Shown one piece after another: positions 7,704 through 17,549 of a DNA stretch of 64,000 nucleotides. Location of the stretch: the NCBI GenBank assembly GCA_947503785.1, contig CANNFB010000011.1, positions 1 through 64,000 of the forward strand, given 5' to 3'. The position numbers and the translations under genes are program-made. The notes under the pieces were generated by a model. That model worked only from the letters and a program-made list of their open reading frames with translations, had not been told where the DNA came from and ran no database searches. Positions within the stretch are counted from its first letter, which is position 1. Every line of letters begins with the position of its first letter. This DNA is from an uncultured Campylobacterales bacterium. Its GTDB lineage: Bacteria > Campylobacterota > Campylobacteria > Campylobacterales > Arcobacteraceae.

Positions 7704-7736
7704 TATAATTTTAAATATAATAATAAAAAATAAAGG
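7704..7736 (+). promoter_or_regulatory. probable promoter and ribosome site of the type II secretion operon
   Basis: A TATAAT hexamer at 7704-7709 lies in the 105-base gap before gspG, with no clear -35 box, as is common in Campylobacterota. AAGG at 7733-7736 precedes the TTG start at 7744 by 7 bases and supports that start. Confidence 0.45.
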
Positions 7737-7743
7737 TTCAAAT

Positions 7744-8118
7744 TTGAAAAAAGCATTTTCTTTAATGGAATTAATGGTTGTAATCATAATATTAGGATTA
7801 TTAGCAGCATTTGTATTGCCAAACCTTACTGGGAAAAGTGAAGAAGCAAAAGATAAAATTGTATGCATTCAAATGAAAAGTATAGCCCAAACATTAAAAA
7901 TGTTTAAACTTGATACTTCTTCTTATCCTCAAACAGAAGAGGGATTAGATATTTTAACTAAAAAGAAATATTTTGAAGATGGAAAATTACCAAAAGATGC
8001 CTGGGGAAATAAATTTATTTATATTCAGAATGAAGATAGCTTTGATTTAGTTTCAATGGGTTCAGATAAAAAAGAGAACACAAAAGACGATATTTATTAC
8101 TCAAAGTGTAATAAATAA
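7744..8118 (+). CDS. gspG: type II secretion major pseudopilin GspG
   Basis: 124 aa, starting with TTG at a good ribosome site. The prepilin leader is only MKKA, followed by the hydrophobic helix FSLMELMVVIIILGLLAAFVLP with Glu at position +5. Residue -1 is Ala instead of the usual Gly. The rest is diagnostic of GspG: IKMKSIA-like helix, LDTSSYPQTEEGLDIL, DAWGNKFIYI and a C-terminal calcium-loop-like stretch SMGSDKKENTKDDI. It would form the body of the periplasmic pseudopilus after processing by a prepilin peptidase encoded elsewhere. It is the first gene of the operon, 2 bases before the next. Confidence 0.93.
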   Translation: MKKAFSLMELMVVIIILGLLAAFVLPNLTGKSEEAKDKIVCIQMKSIAQTLKMFKLDTSSYPQTEEGLDILTKKKYFEDGKLPKDAWGNKFIYIQNEDSFDLVSMGSDKKENTKDDIYYSKCNK

Positions 8119-8120
8119 AA

Positions 8121-8663
8121 ATGAGTTTAAATAGAGTAAAAAAAGCTTTTACTCTAATCGAACTTATCATTGTAATAATTTTAATATCTATTTCTTATTA
8201 TTTGATTTTCTCAAACTCTAATTTTAAAATTACGAATGAAAAAGAAAATATTTCTTTAATAAATATTAAAAAGTACTTATTAAATAATTTTCAGTATAAA
8301 AACGAGTTATCTCTAGTTTGTATAAATGAAAAATTAACTTGTTATATTAAGATTGATGGAATAATAAATAAAGAAGTTAAAATAGAAAATTTATTTGGGA
8401 ATAAACCAGATGTATATAAATATCAAAAAGAAGAACAAGTAATAGATTATGAATCAATTGATATTGACAATATTTCACAAGATGTAATCTTTGAATTAAA
8501 AATAGACAATGATTACAAGTTCAATGATGTGGTAGTTGATACTTTAAATGATAAAGTGTATTTATTTAATTCAATTTTTAGTAATGTAAAAATATATAAT
8601 TCTTTACAAGAAGTTTTTGAAACTTTTAATAAAAATCAATTAGAGGTTCAAGATGCTTTTTAA
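8121..8663 (+). CDS. minor pseudopilin, GspH-like position
   Basis: 180 aa. The leader MSLNRVKKA is followed by FTLIELIIVIILISISYYLIF, a class III prepilin helix with Glu at +5 and Ala at -1. The globular part has no motif I can assign to GspH with certainty; the name rests on its place between gspG and gspF. It overlaps gspF by 11 bases, so translation is coupled. Minor pseudopilins are expected to prime assembly of the T2SS pseudopilus. Confidence 0.75.
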   Translation: MSLNRVKKAFTLIELIIVIILISISYYLIFSNSNFKITNEKENISLINIKKYLLNNFQYKNELSLVCINEKLTCYIKIDGIINKEVKIENLFGNKPDVYKYQKEEQVIDYESIDIDNISQDVIFELKIDNDYKFNDVVVDTLNDKVYLFNSIFSNVKIYNSLQEVFETFNKNQLEVQDAF

Positions 8664-9867
8664 ATATCAAGGTTTTGATTCAAATGGAAAAAAACTAAAA
8701 TCAAAAATAGAAGCTTTAAATTTAAGCGAAGCTAAATCTAAATTAAAATCAAAAAACATACTTTATACTTCTTTAATAGAAGAGGATTTTAGCTTCTCAA
8801 AATTCTCTTTAAAAAGAAAAAAAACTTTAAGTTTGTCTACTTTATCTTATTTAAGTAGAGACTTAAGTATTTATTTAAATTCTGGAATTTCATTAATCTC
8901 TGCAATAAATCTACTAAAGCAAAGATATAAAAATGACAAAGTTCTAAACTCATTTTTTGAATCAATTTCAACTTACTTAGATGAGGGAAAAAACTTTTAC
9001 GTGGCACTTGATTCTCAAAATGTCGTAAACCTTCCAGAATTTTATAAGCAATCAATAAAAATTAGTGAAAATGGAGGCTTATTAGAATCTGTGCTATTGG
9101 AATTATCAACATTTTTAAAAGAACAAGATAGAATAAAAAAACAAGTATCTGCAGCTTTAGCATATCCATTGTTTATTCTTTTTATATCTTTCTTTATGGT
9201 TGGATTTATGTTAAGTTTCATAGTTCCCAAAATTACAGATATATTTACTCAAATAGATCAAGAACTTCCACAAAGTACTAAAATAGTAATAGCTCTTGGA
9301 GATTTTTTCTCAAATAACTATATATATATTATTATAGTACTTTTTGCAGTTATAATTACTTTTTTATTACTAATAAAAAAATCAAAAACTTTCAAGTACG
9401 GCTTTGATAAATTTGTTTTAAAACTTCCATTTTTTTCAACTATGATTGAACAAGGTGAACTAGCAAGATTCTCATATATGAATTCTATTTTGATTAAATC
9501 AGGTGTTCCAATTGTTCAAGGAATAAACTTAAGTGCAAATATTCTAAAAAACTCTGTTATTAAAAGAGTGTTTGTAGAGGCTTCAAAAAGTGTAGTTGAG
9601 GGGAAAAAACTATCTGTATTATTAAGTACAAATAAGATATATAAAATTGATGAAGCTTTTATTCACTCTATTGCAATTGGTGAAGATACTAGCAAGTTAT
9701 CAGAAATACTTAGTAATTTAGCAATTTTATATAATGAAGCGAATAAAGATAAAACGGATATTTTTCTAGCACTACTTGAACCTATATTTATGCTATTTGT
9801 TGGTGTTACAATTGGATTTATTGTAATTTCAATGTTATTGCCAATTTTCTCGATGAACTTAAGTTAA
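8653..9867 (+). CDS. gspF: type II secretion inner-membrane platform protein GspF
   Basis: 404 aa, the typical length. It starts FKYQGFDSNGKKLKSKIEA, the standard opening of GspF/PilC proteins, followed by two T2SSF domains (about residues 65-185 and 265-390). Three hydrophobic segments are visible near 165-190, 215-240 and 372-398. The protein forms the inner-membrane platform that couples the GspE ATPase to pseudopilus assembly. Confidence 0.93.
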   Translation: MLFKYQGFDSNGKKLKSKIEALNLSEAKSKLKSKNILYTSLIEEDFSFSKFSLKRKKTLSLSTLSYLSRDLSIYLNSGISLISAINLLKQRYKNDKVLNSFFESISTYLDEGKNFYVALDSQNVVNLPEFYKQSIKISENGGLLESVLLELSTFLKEQDRIKKQVSAALAYPLFILFISFFMVGFMLSFIVPKITDIFTQIDQELPQSTKIVIALGDFFSNNYIYIIIVLFAVIITFLLLIKKSKTFKYGFDKFVLKLPFFSTMIEQGELARFSYMNSILIKSGVPIVQGINLSANILKNSVIKRVFVEASKSVVEGKKLSVLLSTNKIYKIDEAFIHSIAIGEDTSKLSEILSNLAILYNEANKDKTDIFLALLEPIFMLFVGVTIGFIVISMLLPIFSMNLS

Positions 9868-9886
9868 CTCAAGTGTATAAACAAAT

Positions 9887-10561
9887 ATGAAAAAATCTAT
9901 TGTTTTATTGATTTCACTTTTTTTTATTTCTGCTTTATCTATTTTGATTATTAAAAACCTAGAAGATACAAGTACCTTCATAGAAGAAAAAAATCATAAA
10001 ATAAATAGAGTTCAATTACTTACATCAATTAATAATATTCAAACTGAAATAAGTAAGATATTTAACAACAACAAAAAAAGAATTGATGATATTATTGTTA
10101 AATTAAATTCTGAATATATTCCAATAAATGTAAAAAATATCTTAATTTCATTTACTATAACTAAATATAACAAAGTTGATATAAACCTATTATCAAATAA
10201 AGATAATAAAAAATATCAAGAAATAAATAGCTTATTTAATGACTATAAAATTAGTGATTTTGATACTTTTCGATATGTTTTTAAGACAATAAAAGATGAG
10301 TATAAAAACACTAGAACTTCTGGTGTAGAGTTTATAAAAAATCATAAGCAAATTGATGATATAATAAAAATATTTATTAAAGAAACTTATAATGATGAAA
10401 TCTTAAATATCAAAGATAAATTAGGTTTTATTAAAAAAGAAAAAGATGAAAAGTTATATGAACTTTTTGTAAAAGTTAATTATTTAACTGATTTTGCGAA
10501 GGCTTATTATATTCTTAATGAAAAAGGGGAAGTAAAATATTTTGAGTCTAGTTTCAAGTAA
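9887..10561 (+). CDS. probable GspK-like minor pseudopilin
   Basis: 224 aa. It starts MKKSIVLLISLFFISALSILII: a short basic leader and a single helix that lacks the Glu at +5, as is typical for GspK, the pseudopilus tip subunit. The remainder is Lys/Ile/Asn-rich and helical. It is shorter than classical GspK (about 300 aa or more), and I see no further GspK motif, so the name rests on the helix and on its position directly before gspL. It ends overlapping the next gene by 20 bases. Confidence 0.55.
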   Translation: MKKSIVLLISLFFISALSILIIKNLEDTSTFIEEKNHKINRVQLLTSINNIQTEISKIFNNNKKRIDDIIVKLNSEYIPINVKNILISFTITKYNKVDINLLSNKDNKKYQEINSLFNDYKISDFDTFRYVFKTIKDEYKNTRTSGVEFIKNHKQIDDIIKIFIKETYNDEILNIKDKLGFIKKEKDEKLYELFVKVNYLTDFAKAYYILNEKGEVKYFESSFK

Positions 10562-11456
10562 TAATAAGAAAGTATTTTTATCAACTAATACAAAGATAAC
10601 TAGTACTGAAAAAGTTAATATTATACTCTCTCCTGAATTATATTGGGTTAGAATATTTGATATACCTGTAAAAAACACTACACATGCTAGACATGTTTTG
10701 CCTACCTTATTTGAAGATATTTTAAGTGATATATCTGAACTATCATATCAAGTAGTAAAGCTTGAAGAAAATAAATATTTATGTTTTGCATATATAAATA
10801 AAACTATATATGAAGCAATTAAAAAATCTGGAATACCTTTATCTTTAGTAGATAATATTTATTTTGCACAAAATGAGTGTGAGAAAATAAAAGAGTTTAC
10901 TTTTGATAATAAAAGTTTTATCTACTCACCTGACAATATTTTGATCAAAGTTCCAAATATAATGCTTTCAAATCCTATAAATCTGAATGAAAATATAAAT
11001 AAAATAGAGTTGTCATCACATAAAATTGATATAAAACTATATAACAATGTTTTGTCTTCAAAACAAGTTTATTCAATACTAGCGATTATATTATGTATTA
11101 GTATTATTAATATTTACAAATTGTTTGATTGTAAAGCACAGAGTTCTAAAATCGAAAATGAAATTGATATACAAAAGGAACAGAGTAATCTTCCCTCAAG
11201 TATCTTACAAACAAATTCAATATTAAAAAAATATGAATCAATTGAAAATAAAGATATCAAAAAAAGAGATTTCCTAGAATATCTATTATCAAATAAAACA
11301 TTTAAAATAGATAAAATAAATTTAAATAAAGATATATTTTTTATTACATTTAACAGTAGTGATAAAGTAAGAGTAGAGAAGTATATATCAAAAAAGTATA
11401 AAATTATCTCAAGTAAAGTAAAAGCTTTAGATATCCAAGTACAGGTTAAATTATGA
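10542..11456 (+). CDS. GspL-like type II secretion assembly protein
   Basis: 304 aa with a TTG start; a GGGGA site lies 11 bases upstream. Residues 1-160 resemble the cytoplasmic actin-like domain of GspL/PilM (LSPELYWVRIFDIPVKN, then HARHVLPTLFEDIL). One membrane segment lies near 176-192 (SILAIILCISIINIYKL), followed by a periplasmic coiled-coil and a small ferredoxin-like domain. GspL links the GspE ATPase to GspM and GspC. The stop overlaps the following ATG by four bases (ATGA). Confidence 0.75.
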   Translation: MSLVSSNNKKVFLSTNTKITSTEKVNIILSPELYWVRIFDIPVKNTTHARHVLPTLFEDILSDISELSYQVVKLEENKYLCFAYINKTIYEAIKKSGIPLSLVDNIYFAQNECEKIKEFTFDNKSFIYSPDNILIKVPNIMLSNPINLNENINKIELSSHKIDIKLYNNVLSSKQVYSILAIILCISIINIYKLFDCKAQSSKIENEIDIQKEQSNLPSSILQTNSILKKYESIENKDIKKRDFLEYLLSNKTFKIDKINLNKDIFFITFNSSDKVRVEKYISKKYKIISSKVKALDIQVQVKL

Positions 11457-11848
11457 AGAGAATAAATCCTTTATATTTAATTGCTTTAACATTAACCTTT
11501 TTATTTATATCTTTATATTCTTTAAATAATGAGAAATTATCTTTTATAGAAAAAAAAGATGAATTAAACTTAATAAAACAAAAAGCAAAAGATTATAAGT
11601 CATATAAAGAATCTTGGAACAATGAAGCTTTTGTAAGTAAAACATTAGACAATATCTTAAAAAGTCGTCAATTTTCTAATCAAAAAGTATTAAGAGTAAA
11701 AACTAAAAACAGTGTAAAAGTTAAAATACAATCAAATGATCAAAATATTTTAAATGCATTTTTAAATAAGATTTTGAATAAAAAACTAATTATAAGAAAA
11801 CTTGCAATAGAAAAAAGTTTTGTTAATGTAGAAATAGGAATCAACTAA
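11453..11848 (+). CDS. GspM-like type II secretion protein
   Basis: 131 aa. A short cytoplasmic start, one membrane helix (about residues 5-23, LYLIALTLTFLFISLYSL), a coiled-coil and a small alpha/beta C-terminal domain. This layout, and its place between a GspL-like and a GspN-like gene, is that of GspM, the GspL partner. Sequence motifs are weak at this divergence. The stop shares one base with the next ATG (TAATG). Confidence 0.65.
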   Translation: MKRINPLYLIALTLTFLFISLYSLNNEKLSFIEKKDELNLIKQKAKDYKSYKESWNNEAFVSKTLDNILKSRQFSNQKVLRVKTKNSVKVKIQSNDQNILNAFLNKILNKKLIIRKLAIEKSFVNVEIGIN

Positions 11849-12375
11849 TGAAAAAGATTTTTAAACTACTTATATATGTTGTATCTTTTATAGCTTGTAC
11901 TTTAGTTTTTTTGCCAAAAGCATCTATTTATAATTTATTAGAGCAAGAATTATCAAAACAAAATATTATAATCTCAGATGAAAAAAGAGATGAAAAACTT
12001 TTAAGTTTAGATATAAGTGATGCAAAGGTTTATTATCAAGATATAGAGGGTGCAAATATAAATAGCATCAATTTCTTCTCTTCGGTCTTTTATTCAAAAA
12101 TAGAAGTTAGTGATGTTAAATTATTACAAAGCTTGGCATCATTTTTCCCTCCTCATATTAAAAAAGTTGAATTAAAATATTCAGCCTTAGATTATAAAAA
12201 TATAAATATTTATTCACTTGGAGATTTCGGTGTATTAAATGGAAATATTAATTTAATAGATAGAACTTTAATACTTAAACTAGAAGCCTCAAATAAAATG
12301 AAAAGAGAATATTCAAGAGTATTAAAACAAATGAAATTAGATGAAGGGATATATGTTTATGAATATAGATTTTAA
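11848..12375 (+). CDS. GspN-like type II secretion protein
   Basis: 175 aa. An N-terminal signal-anchor (about residues 4-25) is followed by a beta-rich periplasmic domain of the GspN/AsmA kind: LLSLDISDAKVYYQDIEGANINSI and VELKYSALDYKNINIYSLGDFGVLNG-type strands. GspN is optional in T2SS and of unclear function; it is shorter here than the usual 230-250 aa. It overlaps the gspC-like gene by 17 bases or more. Confidence 0.55.
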   Translation: MKKIFKLLIYVVSFIACTLVFLPKASIYNLLEQELSKQNIIISDEKRDEKLLSLDISDAKVYYQDIEGANINSINFFSSVFYSKIEVSDVKLLQSLASFFPPHIKKVELKYSALDYKNINIYSLGDFGVLNGNINLIDRTLILKLEASNKMKREYSRVLKQMKLDEGIYVYEYRF

Positions 12376-13177
12376 TAAATTAATTCAAAAATTAATTCCA
12401 TATGCTTTTATTTTATTACTAGCATATTTAATTTCAACAATAATCTTTATATATTTGCCTAAAAATGGAGTAGATTTTATAGATAATTCAATACAAACTT
12501 TAGAGTATAGAAAATATGATGGTTTTTATTCTAATGCTAAAGCAATAATTAAAAAGAAAGAAGTTAAAAAAGTTGTAAAACAAAAAACACTTTCTAATTA
12601 TACTTTAAAAGCAATTTACTCAACTACTTCAAATAGTGGCTGGATTACTATTGAAAATAAGCAAAATAGAAAAAGCTATATTCTCTCACAATTTGAAGAA
12701 ATTGATGGATATATTCTTACTAAACTTTTTAAAAACTATATAGTTTTAGAAAAACAAGCTAAAGAGTATCGATTAGATATAAAACAAGCAAATGAAAAAG
12801 TTGCGTATAAGGTGACTAATGTTGTAAATAATATAAAGGAAAATATTGTAGTTGAGGGAAATAGTGTAGTAATAAATAGAGATTATTTAAACTCTTATGT
12901 TAATGATATTGATAAAGTATGGAATAATATAGCTATAAATGAAATTAGAGCCAATGGTAAAATAGAAGGTTTTAAAGTTATGCGAGTTACAAAGAAATCT
13001 GTTTTTGGTAAACTTGGTTTAAAAAAGAATGATGTTATAAAATCTATTAATAATAATATTTTAACATCGTATGCTGATGCTTTTAAAGTTTATAATAATA
13101 TCAGTAATACAAAATATTTAAATTTAGAAATTTTAAGAAATAATGAAATATTGGAGTTAAATTATGAGATTGATTAG
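12359..13177 (+). CDS. gspC: GspC-like protein with C-terminal PDZ domain
   Basis: 272 aa from this ATG. AAGGGA at 12344-12349 fits the ATG at 12359 (spacing 9) better than those at 12341 or 12353. One membrane helix near residues 10-32 is followed by a homology region (ALKAIYSTTSNSGWITIENKQ-like, with LSQFEEIDGYILTKLF) and a PDZ domain at about 190-270: GKIEGFKVMRVTKKSVFGKLGLKKND, then VIKSINNN. GspC connects the inner-membrane platform to the secretin and takes part in substrate recognition. It overlaps gspD by 14 bases. Confidence 0.8.
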   Translation: MNIDFNKLIQKLIPYAFILLLAYLISTIIFIYLPKNGVDFIDNSIQTLEYRKYDGFYSNAKAIIKKKEVKKVVKQKTLSNYTLKAIYSTTSNSGWITIENKQNRKSYILSQFEEIDGYILTKLFKNYIVLEKQAKEYRLDIKQANEKVAYKVTNVVNNIKENIVVEGNSVVINRDYLNSYVNDIDKVWNNIAINEIRANGKIEGFKVMRVTKKSVFGKLGLKKNDVIKSINNNILTSYADAFKVYNNISNTKYLNLEILRNNEILELNYEID

Positions 13178-15131
13178 AGTTGTACTATTAGTTTTTTTAC
13201 TAAATTTTATATCACAAGCAGATGAAAAAATAAATATAAATTTTAAAGATTTAAAAATAATGGATTTAGTAAAAATCACATCAAAAATCATTGATAAAAA
13301 TATTTTAGTAACTCAAGAAATAAAAGGAAATGTTGACTTTATTTCTACTAAGCCTTTAGAAAAAAAAGAGTTAGTTAAAATTTTAATCTATTCACTTGAA
13401 GCTAAAGGTTTTACAATTGTTCAAAGTGACGATATTATGAGAATAGTAAAGTTATCTGAGAGTGCAAAAAACAATGTACCTATAATAAATGGCAATCAAG
13501 AAAAACTTTACTATCAAATGGTAACAGAAATATTTTCTGTACACAATGCTAATGCTGATTACATAGCTTCGAAAGTTAGACATCTTATTTCAAAGACTGC
13601 AAAACTTGTGACAAACAAAGAATCAAATACTTTAGTAATTACAGACTTTAAAGATAATATTAAAACTATTAAAAAAGTTGTAAGTGTTATGACTTATGGA
13701 GCTAAGAAAAGTATTGAAATTATTGAGCTTAAAAATATAAAGGCGTCAGAAGCTAAGAAAAATCTAGATGCAGTAGCAAAATCAATTTTTAATGCGAAAA
13801 TTGAGACTGAAAAGGTTTCCATTATTGCAAATGCTGATAATAACTCTTTAGTAATAGTAGGGAAAAGTCAAAATATTAAGTATCTAAAAAAATATGTAAA
13901 AAATATTGATAGTAATGATTCTTTAATTAAAAGAGTTGTGGAAGTTCACTCTCTAAAAAATGTTGAAGCAATAAATGTAATCAAAATAATTGATGGAATA
14001 ATAGGTAAGAAAAAGTATTTAGATCCAAATGCAAAACCTTTATCTTCAGTTGATGAAGAATCAAATTCAATTGTTTTAATGGGGCCTTCTGATGAATTAG
14101 AATATATTAAAGCTATATTATTTGAATTAGATAAGGAAAAAGCTCAAGTTTATGTTCAAGCTAGAATTATAGAAGTAACAAATAGTTTAGTTGATGAAGT
14201 AGGTATTAAATATGGTATTTTAGGTGGAAAATCTGGAAGTAAAGGTTTAGGTACTTTTGCATCAAATTTAAATGGGGGTAGTTCAATTGCCTTTACTCCA
14301 GGAGATATTGGACTAACAATACCAACAATTACAGCAGGACTTGCTCTTGGTGCATCAATCAGTTTACTGGACCAAGATGGTGCTTTAGATATTGTTTCTG
14401 AACCTTCTATTTTAGCAATTAATAATAAAGAAAGTTCTATATATGTTGGAGAAACAATTTCTGTTAAAACTTCATCTTCTGTTACTGATGGAGGAACAAC
14501 TAATGAAAACTTTAAGAGAGAAGATGTTGGACTTACTTTGAAAGTAAAACCTAGAATATCAAATGATAATAAAGTTACTTTAGAAATTAATACAATTTTA
14601 GAAGATGTTAAAACAACTGCAACTAATAGTGGAAATGCTGATACTACAAAAAAAGAAATAAAGACAACTGCAATAGTTAAAAATGGAGAGTCAGTAATAC
14701 TTGGTGGACTAATTGAAGATAAAGAAGAATCAACAGATAGTAGTGTTCCTGGATTAGGTTCTCTCCCTATTATAGGCAATCTATTTTCTCATGATAAAAC
14801 TGATATTAGAAAGCGAAGTTTAGTAATTATTGTAACGCCATATATTATTCCTAAATCAAAAGATTTAACATATGTTAGAAATAAATTATCTGAATTAAAA
14901 CTATTAGAAGATAAATACTTAAAAGATTCTCTTATTAGATTAAAACAAAAACAAATTTTAGATTTAAAAGAAAATAATTCTTATGAGTTAAAGATAAAAG
15001 AACTAGAAGTAGAGTATCAAAAAGCTAAAAATTTAAAGAATGAAGACTTGAATAGTAATATCTCTTATGACAAAGAAAATAATAAACAAAGAGACCATCA
15101 AAAAAGAGTATCAGAGATGTTAGGAAACTAG
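13164..15131 (+). CDS. gspD: type II secretion outer-membrane secretin GspD
   Basis: 655 aa. A signal peptide (MRLIRVVLLVFLLNFISQADE) leads to the N0 domain (INFKDLKIMDLVKITSKIID), then three N-domain repeats with the recurring Asn-x-L-x-I/V-x-G/D signature (NTLVITD, NSLVIVG, NSIVLMG). The secretin core at about 330-560 ends VPGLGSLPIIGNLFS and RKRSLVIIVTPYII, the secretin hallmark. A Lys/Glu-rich coiled-coil tail of roughly 80 residues follows. The protein forms the multimeric outer-membrane channel. No GspS pilotin is visible nearby. The large antisense reading frame within it is an artefact of composition. Confidence 0.95.
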   Translation: MRLIRVVLLVFLLNFISQADEKININFKDLKIMDLVKITSKIIDKNILVTQEIKGNVDFISTKPLEKKELVKILIYSLEAKGFTIVQSDDIMRIVKLSESAKNNVPIINGNQEKLYYQMVTEIFSVHNANADYIASKVRHLISKTAKLVTNKESNTLVITDFKDNIKTIKKVVSVMTYGAKKSIEIIELKNIKASEAKKNLDAVAKSIFNAKIETEKVSIIANADNNSLVIVGKSQNIKYLKKYVKNIDSNDSLIKRVVEVHSLKNVEAINVIKIIDGIIGKKKYLDPNAKPLSSVDEESNSIVLMGPSDELEYIKAILFELDKEKAQVYVQARIIEVTNSLVDEVGIKYGILGGKSGSKGLGTFASNLNGGSSIAFTPGDIGLTIPTITAGLALGASISLLDQDGALDIVSEPSILAINNKESSIYVGETISVKTSSSVTDGGTTNENFKREDVGLTLKVKPRISNDNKVTLEINTILEDVKTTATNSGNADTTKKEIKTTAIVKNGESVILGGLIEDKEESTDSSVPGLGSLPIIGNLFSHDKTDIRKRSLVIIVTPYIIPKSKDLTYVRNKLSELKLLEDKYLKDSLIRLKQKQILDLKENNSYELKIKELEVEYQKAKNLKNEDLNSNISYDKENNKQRDHQKRVSEMLGN

Positions 15132-16634
15132 ATGAATATTCAAGAAATACACAATATAAACTTATTACCTTATGAAGTTGAAAATTATTCTCTTGCTTTA
15201 AAAAGTTATGTACTTTTTTCACAAATTGATGACAAAATTGTAATTGCAATATCTAAAGATTATATGAGTGTTTCTTTTGATTATCTTTCAAAGTTTGAAT
15301 ATGAATATGAAGTAATATTTTTAAGTGAAATATCTTATGAAAGACTTTACAATAAATTTTTAGAAATAAAAACAGATAAAGAAATGAGTGAAATTCAACA
15401 AGAGCAAGAAGATGCAACTGTTGAAGATGAAGATTTTTCAGTAAGTGAGTTTTTAAAAGTTGGAAGTGATATTTTAACATCTGAAGAATCTGCTCCAATT
15501 ATTAAGTTTGTAAATTCACTATTTTACCAAGCCATAAAGAAAAAAGCTTCAGATATTCATATAGAAATGCATGAATTTAGAGCAGAAGTAAGATATAGAG
15601 TAGATGGTGTTTTAGTTAAGCATATTGAGCTAGATAAAAATATAATGTCTTTAGTAATATCTAGAATTAAAGTTATCTCAAATTTAGATATTAGTGAAAA
15701 AAGAATTCCACAAGATGGACGAACACAAATAAAAATTGCAGGAAAAACTTTAGATATTAGGGTTTCTATTCTTCCTACTTTTTATGGGGAAAGAGTTGTA
15801 ATGAGAATCTTGATGCAAAGTGAAGATATCTTATCAGTTAAAGACCTAGGTTTTCCTTCTTATATTACAGATGAGTTAGAAAAAGTACTACGAAACTCGT
15901 ATGGAATGGTATTAGTAACGGGTCCAACTGGAAGTGGAAAGTCTACGACTCTTCACTCACTTTTACATCAAGTTGTAAGTGAAGAAAAAAACATAATTAC
16001 TGTTGAAGATCCAGTTGAGTATAAATCAAATAAATTCTCTCAAATTCAAGTTAATGAAAAAGTAGGGCTTACATTTGCCAGTGGATTAAGATCGATTTTA
16101 AGACAAGATCCAGATATTATAATGCTAGGTGAGATTAGAGATCAAGAAACGGCTTCTATTGCTATTCAATCTGCTTTAACAGGACACTTACTCTTTTCTA
16201 CTCTTCACACAAATAGAGCACCTGCAGCAATTACAAGACTTATTGATATGGGAGTTGAAAAGTTTTTAATCTCTTCTTCATTGCTTGCTGTATTAGCTCA
16301 AAGACTTGTTCGTAAACTTTGCACTTCTTGTAAGTGTGAAGATGATTCAGATGCTTCATATAAACTTTTCTCTTTATCACCTAATACTAAACTTTATAAA
16401 CCAAATGGTTGTAAAGAGTGTAATTTTACAGGATATGCAGGTCGTATTGCGATTGGTGAATTATTTATTATTGATGATGAGATTAAAGAGTATTTAAAAA
16501 CAGATGTTGATGATAATACCTTAATGAATTTAGGACTTAAAAGTGGAATGATTTCTTTAGATAAACAATTAAAACAAATGCTAGAAAATGGAGACACTTC
16601 AGTTTCAGAAGCTGTGAGAATAGGTTTAAAATAA
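15132..16634 (+). CDS. gspE: type II secretion ATPase GspE
   Basis: 500 aa. It has the GspE/PilB order: a short N-terminal domain, then an NTPase core with DIHIEMHEFRAEVRYRVDGV near 140, Walker A GPTGSGKST near 262-270, Asp box EDPVEY, Walker B IIMLGEIRD near 330 and the His box LLFSTLHTNRA. A tetracysteine zinc element follows (CTSC, then CKEC near 395-430). It powers pseudopilus assembly. Its ATG follows the gspD stop directly, with no gap. There is no PilT-like ATPase in the cluster, which supports T2SS over a twitching pilus. Confidence 0.95.
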   Translation: MNIQEIHNINLLPYEVENYSLALKSYVLFSQIDDKIVIAISKDYMSVSFDYLSKFEYEYEVIFLSEISYERLYNKFLEIKTDKEMSEIQQEQEDATVEDEDFSVSEFLKVGSDILTSEESAPIIKFVNSLFYQAIKKKASDIHIEMHEFRAEVRYRVDGVLVKHIELDKNIMSLVISRIKVISNLDISEKRIPQDGRTQIKIAGKTLDIRVSILPTFYGERVVMRILMQSEDILSVKDLGFPSYITDELEKVLRNSYGMVLVTGPTGSGKSTTLHSLLHQVVSEEKNIITVEDPVEYKSNKFSQIQVNEKVGLTFASGLRSILRQDPDIIMLGEIRDQETASIAIQSALTGHLLFSTLHTNRAPAAITRLIDMGVEKFLISSSLLAVLAQRLVRKLCTSCKCEDDSDASYKLFSLSPNTKLYKPNGCKECNFTGYAGRIAIGELFIIDDEIKEYLKTDVDDNTLMNLGLKSGMISLDKQLKQMLENGDTSVSEAVRIGLK

Positions 16635-16635
16635 A

Positions 16636-17031
16636 ATGAAAAAATCTTTTTCTTTAATGGAAGTAATTATTGCTGTTGTGATGCTAAGTGTTGTAATGCT
16701 TACTTTATTACAAATAAAAAGTGATAGTATTTTTATTGTAAGTAAAAACAATGAACAAAGTAAACTAATTGATTATATGCAACTAGTAGTAAATATGAGT
16801 AATGAAGAAAAAAAGAATGAAAATATTTTTTTAGATAGAATTTATAACTTTGATAATGATGAGATTAGAAAAGAGTTTAAAGATATTAAAATCAAAGTTA
16901 AAAGTGAGCAAGTAGATTCCCAAGATTATAATACAGATAGCGTGAATTTTAAAATAATTACAAATGCAAATTCATATTCGATTAATGCTGATATAAAAAA
17001 GAATATTTATACTTTTAAGATTGAGTTATAA
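16636..17031 (+). CDS. minor pseudopilin, GspI-like
   Basis: 131 aa. Prepilin leader MKKS followed by FSLMEVIIAVVMLSVVMLTLL, with Glu at +5 and Ser at -1. Size and the short globular domain suit GspI. It follows gspE by one base and precedes the next prepilin by two. The assignment to I rather than H rests on position next to the GspJ-like gene. Confidence 0.7.
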   Translation: MKKSFSLMEVIIAVVMLSVVMLTLLQIKSDSIFIVSKNNEQSKLIDYMQLVVNMSNEEKKNENIFLDRIYNFDNDEIRKEFKDIKIKVKSEQVDSQDYNTDSVNFKIITNANSYSINADIKKNIYTFKIEL

Positions 17032-17033
17032 AA

Positions 17034-17549
17034 ATGAAGAAAGCTTTTACATTATTAGAAGTTGTTATTTCTATTACAATTTTTATGATTTTATTGATTT
17101 TTTTATATAAAACTTTAGACCAAACTAAACATTCAAACCAGCAGTTTTCAAAATATTCTGAAAACTTAAAATATAAAAATGAATTAAATGATATATTTTT
17201 AGAAGATATATTGGAATCAAAAAGTAAAATTGAGATAAAAAAAGATAATGATAAAAATTCATTATTAAGATTTGAAAGTTCTAATAGCTATCATAATTCA
17301 TTTTTTAATCATATTACATATATGATATCTTCAAATGATAAATTAATTAGAATAGAAAGCAAGGATAAGTTTAACTTAGCTGAAACGCAAATAGATTTTT
17401 ATGATTACTCTTTTATTGATGTCTTATTAGAAGATATTGAGTATTTTGAAGTAAAAGAAAATGGTAAAAAGAGTAATCACAACTATGTTTTTGTTATAAA
17501 ACAAAAAGATAAAGAAAGAATTATTTTTAATACATATAAATTTAAATAA
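17034..17549 (+). CDS. minor pseudopilin, GspJ-like
   Basis: 171 aa. Leader MKKA and helix FTLLEVVISITIFMILLIFLYK with Glu at +5 and Ala at -1. The longer globular domain (NSLLRFESSNSYHNSFFNHITYMIS, then KLIRIESKDKF) follows the GspJ pattern of a beta-rich domain describing a table of strands. Together with the GspI- and GspK-like proteins it would form the pseudopilus tip. It ends 11 bases before the SH3b gene. Confidence 0.7.
   Translation: MKKAFTLLEVVISITIFMILLIFLYKTLDQTKHSNQQFSKYSENLKYKNELNDIFLEDILESKSKIEIKKDNDKNSLLRFESSNSYHNSFFNHITYMISSNDKLIRIESKDKFNLAETQIDFYDYSFIDVLLEDIEYFEVKENGKKSNHNYVFVIKQKDKERIIFNTYKFK

Follow-up and report, generated by a model that had tools for sequence, protein, structure and literature searches.

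Positions 7744-17549 of the window, by which we mean the whole 64,000-nucleotide stretch of Campylobacterales DNA that was analyzed, contain a type II secretion (gsp) cluster in which genes for G, H, F, K-like, L-like, M-like, N-like, C, D, E, I and J follow one another in a single run (Table 1). Membership of a type II secretion system is indicated by GspG and GspD, both of which pass their NCBIfam cut-offs. GspE, GspF, GspC and GspJ also match the corresponding Gsp models of NCBIfam, with scores under cut-off, and the Pfam models T2SSF (GspF) and PDZ_2 (GspC) are passed. The GspI-like protein scored 23.8 bits against PF07963 in the genome search and 17.9 bits, against a cut-off of 21.2, in the protein scan. 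In comparison with Gsp type II secretion systems, the cluster has the same G, H, F, K-like, C, D, E, I and J genes in one run, but its L, M and N genes are recognized by order only and it lacks GspO. NCBIfam and Pfam scans gave no family match for the K-like protein; it was named GspK-like because of its location, its missing Glu at +5 and a 37% identical gene at the matching place in a near relative, G150 (a Sulfurospirillum sp. MAG). The TTG start of GspG is preceded, seven bases upstream, by an AAGG that resembles a ribosome-binding site (7733-7746 of the window, by eye).

Table 1. Genes of the gsp cluster, in window coordinates; the slash in a leader precedes position +1
Feature	Coordinates	Strand	Leader	Remarks
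GspG major pseudopilin	7744..8118	+	MKKA/FSLMELM	Ala at −1; TTG start; TIGR01710 102.7 bits, above cut-off 88.85
GspH-like minor pseudopilin	8121..8663	+	MSLNRVKKA/FTLIELI	Ala at −1; PF07963 above cut-off; BLAST orthologue in two relatives
GspF inner-membrane protein	8653..9867	+		PF00482 E 1.1e-41; top NCBIfam match TIGR02120 under cut-off
GspK-like minor pseudopilin	9887..10561	+	MKKS/IVLLISL	Ser at −1, Ile at +1, without Glu5; named by position and leader
GspL-like	10542..11456	+		Named by gene order; no informative family match
GspM-like	11453..11848	+		Named by gene order
GspN-like	11848..12375	+		Named by gene order; no family match
GspC, PDZ type	12341..13177	+		PF13180 above cut-off; NF041515 under cut-off
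GspD secretin	13164..15131	+		TIGR02517 358.4 bits, above cut-off 351.35
GspE ATPase	15132..16634	+		Top match TIGR02533 556.7 bits, under cut-off 630.25
GspI-like minor pseudopilin	16636..17031	+	MKKS/FSLMEVI	Ser at −1; PF07963 match; BLAST orthologues
GspJ-like minor pseudopilin	17034..17549	+	MKKA/FTLLEVV	Ala at −1; PF07963 above cut-off; TIGR01711 under cut-off; BLAST orthologues

The original prediction held that all five prepilins of the cluster carry Ala or Ser, not Gly, before the cleavage site and that G, H, I and J have Glu at +5. Both statements agree with the sequences, which read KKA/F in G, H and J, KKS/F in I and KKS/I in the K-like protein, with Glu5 seen in all four of the proteins named. 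G, H, I and J possess the features of class III signal peptides, namely a small residue at −1, hydrophobic residues from +1 to +4, Glu or Asp at +5 and an uncharged helix; the K-like protein is without Glu5. When set against class III signal peptides as described by the PilFind motif [GAS]-x4-[DE], the cluster shares the short basic leader, the small −1 residue, Phe at +1, Glu at +5 and the uncharged helix, but differs in having Ala or Ser in place of the commonest residue, Gly, and in the K-like protein that lacks Glu5. Absence of Glu5 from GspK is usual elsewhere as well.

The accompanying claim that prepilin peptidases usually require Gly at −1 stood only in part. It was too strict in view of the PilFind pattern, for which the description in PMC3244431 allows [GAS], and of a passage in a 2023 review that gives Gly or Ala (PMC10191384); it agrees with a passage in a 2014 review, according to which the leader end is invariably Gly except in archaea and this last Gly is absolutely critical (PMC4471445). 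As a passage in PMC4877100 (citing Koomey 1991) reports that a G-1S change in Neisseria gonorrhoeae PilE stops cleavage by PilD, Ser at this position cannot be assumed harmless. Judged by titles and abstracts, searches of the open literature returned nothing that deals with the −1 residue in Campylobacterota, which does not in itself prove that such work is absent.

We next consider the enzyme. Consistent with the prediction that the peptidase is encoded elsewhere, searches of the genome with A24_N and A24 located one full prepilin peptidase of 265 residues on another contig (C8:72053-72850), between an uppS-like gene and a permease-like gene. Both of its domains score above cut-off (A24_N 51.4 bits, A24 116.4 bits), and the GSFLNV motif, the CxxC..CxxC zinc motif and the two catalytic Asp (D122, GEGD196) are intact; its closest named relative, from an Arcobacter sp. 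MAG, is 89% identical, and on this basis the genome is described as Arcobacter-like. The enzyme shares the A24_N and A24 domains, the C4 zinc motif and the two catalytic Asp with GspO/PilD of the A24 family, but it has GEGD-I-P, not GxGD-h-K, at the second Asp and is encoded away from the gsp cluster, adjoining the uppS-like gene. Two candidates for a second peptidase, both on contig C5, were rejected: an A24 match (E 0.92) lies within a TRAP-transporter-like gene, and an A24_N match falls in a frame of 64 residues that shows only CxxC pairs. A further A24_N match, on contig C1 (E 0.149), is a 71-residue frame. The AlphaFold model of the C8 peptidase has a mean pLDDT of 92.6. Foldseek gave no PDB match to it at E <= 0.001, presenilin-type chains stand among the middling VIA rows at Z 5.0 or less, and no close solved relative was found by sequence.

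A search of the genome with PF07963 gave 11 matches, 9 of them credible, four in the gsp cluster and five elsewhere. Among the latter, the prepilin on contig C4 has Gly at −1 (MKKMKKG/FSLLELIFAIVVIG, KKG/FSLLEL), those on C10 (MHKA/FSLLELL) and C23 (MKKA/FSLLEVLL) have Ala, and two on C7 (MRNS/FTLLEVI and MVKNS/FTLFETL) have Ser. Adding the K-like protein and, by eye, an additional C7 prepilin without Glu5 (MKKS/FSLLITI) brings the count to 11 prepilins, the −1 residue being Ala in five, Ser in five and Gly in one (by eye). Two weak N_methyl matches are excluded from this count, one on C16 (E 5.75) and one at C5:3016, which was rejected as a prepilin because it runs antisense to an FlhB-like gene. 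A type IV pilin with Gly at −1 served by the same single peptidase had been named in advance as evidence that would undo the idea of a co-adapted enzyme, and the C4 prepilin, together with the one full prepilin peptidase of the genome, is such a case.

Orthologues of the prepilins were identified by BLAST in G044 and G122, which belong to the same family, and in G150. Comparison of their leaders reveals that the −1 residue changes from gene to gene (Table 2), while the peptidases of this genome and these relatives are 52-70% identical pairwise and have a common GEGD[IL]P core. Such swaps fit a tolerant enzyme; a switch in specificity cannot follow them.

Table 2. Residue at −1 in orthologous prepilins
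Prepilin	This genome	G150	G044	G122	Identity
GspG	A	A	G		65 and 69%
GspH	A	S	A		
GspI	S	S	S		
GspJ	A	S	S		
K-like	S	S			37% (matching place in G150)
C4 pilin	G	S	-	A	59 and 44%
C10 prepilin	A	-	-	A	
C7a	S	-	-	A	
C7b	S	-	-	S	
C7c	S	-	-	S	
C23 prepilin	A	-	S	-	

We consider it likely, on these grounds, that the cluster encodes an ordinary pseudopilin set. The bifunctional C8 peptidase would cut the leaders of the gsp prepilins and would demand a small residue at −1, taking Ala, Ser or Gly, so that within orthologous genes under one enzyme the residue would drift among the three. If the gsp proteins are cleaved, both Ala and Ser have to be tolerated by the enzyme; the one full peptidase of this genome very probably accepts Ala, Ser and Gly.

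The frequency of −1 residues was then examined in 150 related genomes of the same family or order by a census in which the DNA patterns encoded [basic]-X-F-[S/T..]-h-h-E-h-h. Gly stood at X in 113 matches, Ala or Ser encoded by KCN (Ser = TCN) in 372 and Ser encoded by AGY in 15; reversed-pattern controls in the same genomes gave 4, 24 and 10, respectively, indicating that the Gly and KCN counts are mostly real and the AGY count mostly noise. Among the matches listed, the KCN class is nearly all Ala, with Ser commoner in this genome's family. Exactly one peptidase (PF06750) was found in 114 of the 150 genomes, and in these 366 Ala/Ser matches stand against 101 Gly, a share of 78%; the Ala/Ser total includes the noisy AGY matches (15, control 10), and the census totals include a chance match at C11:11403, on the minus strand and antisense in the L-like gene. 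Both kinds occur in 58 of the 114, Ala/Ser only in 50, Gly only in 3 and neither in 3. At this group frequency, and with relatedness ignored, five non-Gly residues in five leaders have a probability of about 0.30. Five non-Gly leaders in one cluster are thus statistically unsurprising. There is no special recoding of the gsp cluster: Ala or Ser at −1 is an ordinary habit of the whole bacterial group and is not confined to this cluster. In four genomes of the same family (G008, G030, G106, G127), no A24_N peptidase was found at E <= 1e-8, yet each has 1-3 matches to the prepilin pattern.

By contrast, 34 genomes of other phyla gave 125 Gly and 17 Ala/Ser, with reversed controls of 3 and 14, and for five Campylobacterota genomes included in that comparison the counts were 7 Gly and 19 Ala/Ser. 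The comparison genomes were picked through their peptidase loci by peptidase similarity, which makes the sample uneven. The 78% share of Ala/Ser is a real shift relative to other phyla and is unexplained by plain drift alone. A shift of this kind would be expected of the enzyme proposed originally, a co-adapted peptidase whose S1 site has been reshaped to prefer Ala or Ser over Gly. Against this, 61 of the 114 genomes with one peptidase, and this genome too, still carry Gly(−1) prepilins, orthologues swap the residue, and the trait is group-wide, so that we hold a co-adapted enzyme to be improbable and the proposal in that form was not upheld.

One difference between the enzymes does accord with co-adaptation. 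The Lys two residues past the catalytic Asp of GxGD/GxAD is absent from all 90 Campylobacterota peptidase loci examined (4 of them by eye), whereas in other phyla 28 of 34 peptidases have a Lys two residues past the second catalytic Asp. Outside Campylobacterota, the few enzymes that lack this Lys (in Gastranaerophilales and one Kiritimatiellae) occur with some Ala, which suggested loss of the Lys as the cause of Ala/Ser. The rule was examined in 39 genomes of Verrucomicrobiota type, 37 of them with one peptidase each, and Lys is kept in 29 of these 37 peptidases (28 of 36, plus L347). The −1 residue of their FTLIELL-type prepilins is Gly in 13 of 13 cases in G192. With Lys-bearing enzymes, it is Ala twice and Gly once in G226, Ala once and Gly once in G211, and also Ala in G200. 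It is almost anything, again with Lys-bearing enzymes and among the matches listed, in G225 (4 Gly, 8 Ser and 38 other among the 50 matches listed), in G207 (2 Gly among the 19 matches listed) and, by eye, in G213. Because Lys-bearing enzymes in this set coexist with Ala and with almost any residue, Lys is not a general determinant of the −1 rule; its loss was rejected as the cause, and the coexistence counts further against a co-adapted enzyme. Pro in GEGD[IL]P was likewise rejected as the cause of Ser, since Ser prepilins also occur alongside GEGDII, in a Nautiliales MAG. In all, comparison of the motif at the second Asp across Campylobacterota and other phyla yielded no peptidase change that tracks the −1 residue, and no substrate-bound or close solved structure was found by which S1 could be defined. 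The usual GxGD is replaced by GxAD at the second Asp in 36 of 86 Campylobacterota peptidases (L025, L031, L032, L044, L361 and others), and in 4 of 4 more by eye.

It is conceivable, although we think it rather unlikely, that the S1 site of the Campylobacterota peptidase was widened to take Ser besides Ala and Gly, unlike Neisseria PilD, freeing the −1 position of all prepilins in the group; such widening may involve the Lys-free motif (GxGD/GxAD, a hydrophobic residue, then Ile, Met, Pro, Val or Phe), though the motif makes no general rule.

It is very improbable that some members, above all the Ser(−1) I and K-like proteins, stay uncleaved or are cleaved slowly, with the residue limiting tip assembly: Ser is present in I and K, two of the three pseudopilins that are presumed to form the pseudopilus tip, is kept in GspI of both relatives and is described in a passage of PMC4877100 as blocking PilD in Neisseria, but the GspI protein keeps Glu5, and a wholesale loss of processing is unlikely because orthologues of GspJ and GspH also go from Ala to Ser and Ser is common in the genome's family.

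Gly at −1 is a minority in this large group, against textbook habit, and prepilin finders that accept Gly only would therefore miss most pilins here. Orthologues that carry Gly, Ala or Ser, with one enzyme each, constitute natural substrate sets for the specificity of prepilin peptidases. The remaining interest lies in Ser: prepilins of this genome carry it naturally, while in Neisseria it blocks PilD, a contrast that allows a clean test of specificity. Elsewhere in the comparison, six Verrucomicrobiota-type genomes, G225 (L311), G213 (L347), G207 (L323), G197 (L324), G199 (L313) and G190 (L316), show between about 50 and 180 matches apiece to prepilins of the FTLIELL type. Each of the six has a single peptidase, in which GWGD surrounds the second catalytic Asp. 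In the 2.0 Mb genome of a Gastranaerophilales MAG, G163 (L177), PF07963 is matched 108 times at E <= 0.001, and the peptidase has GEGDTF.
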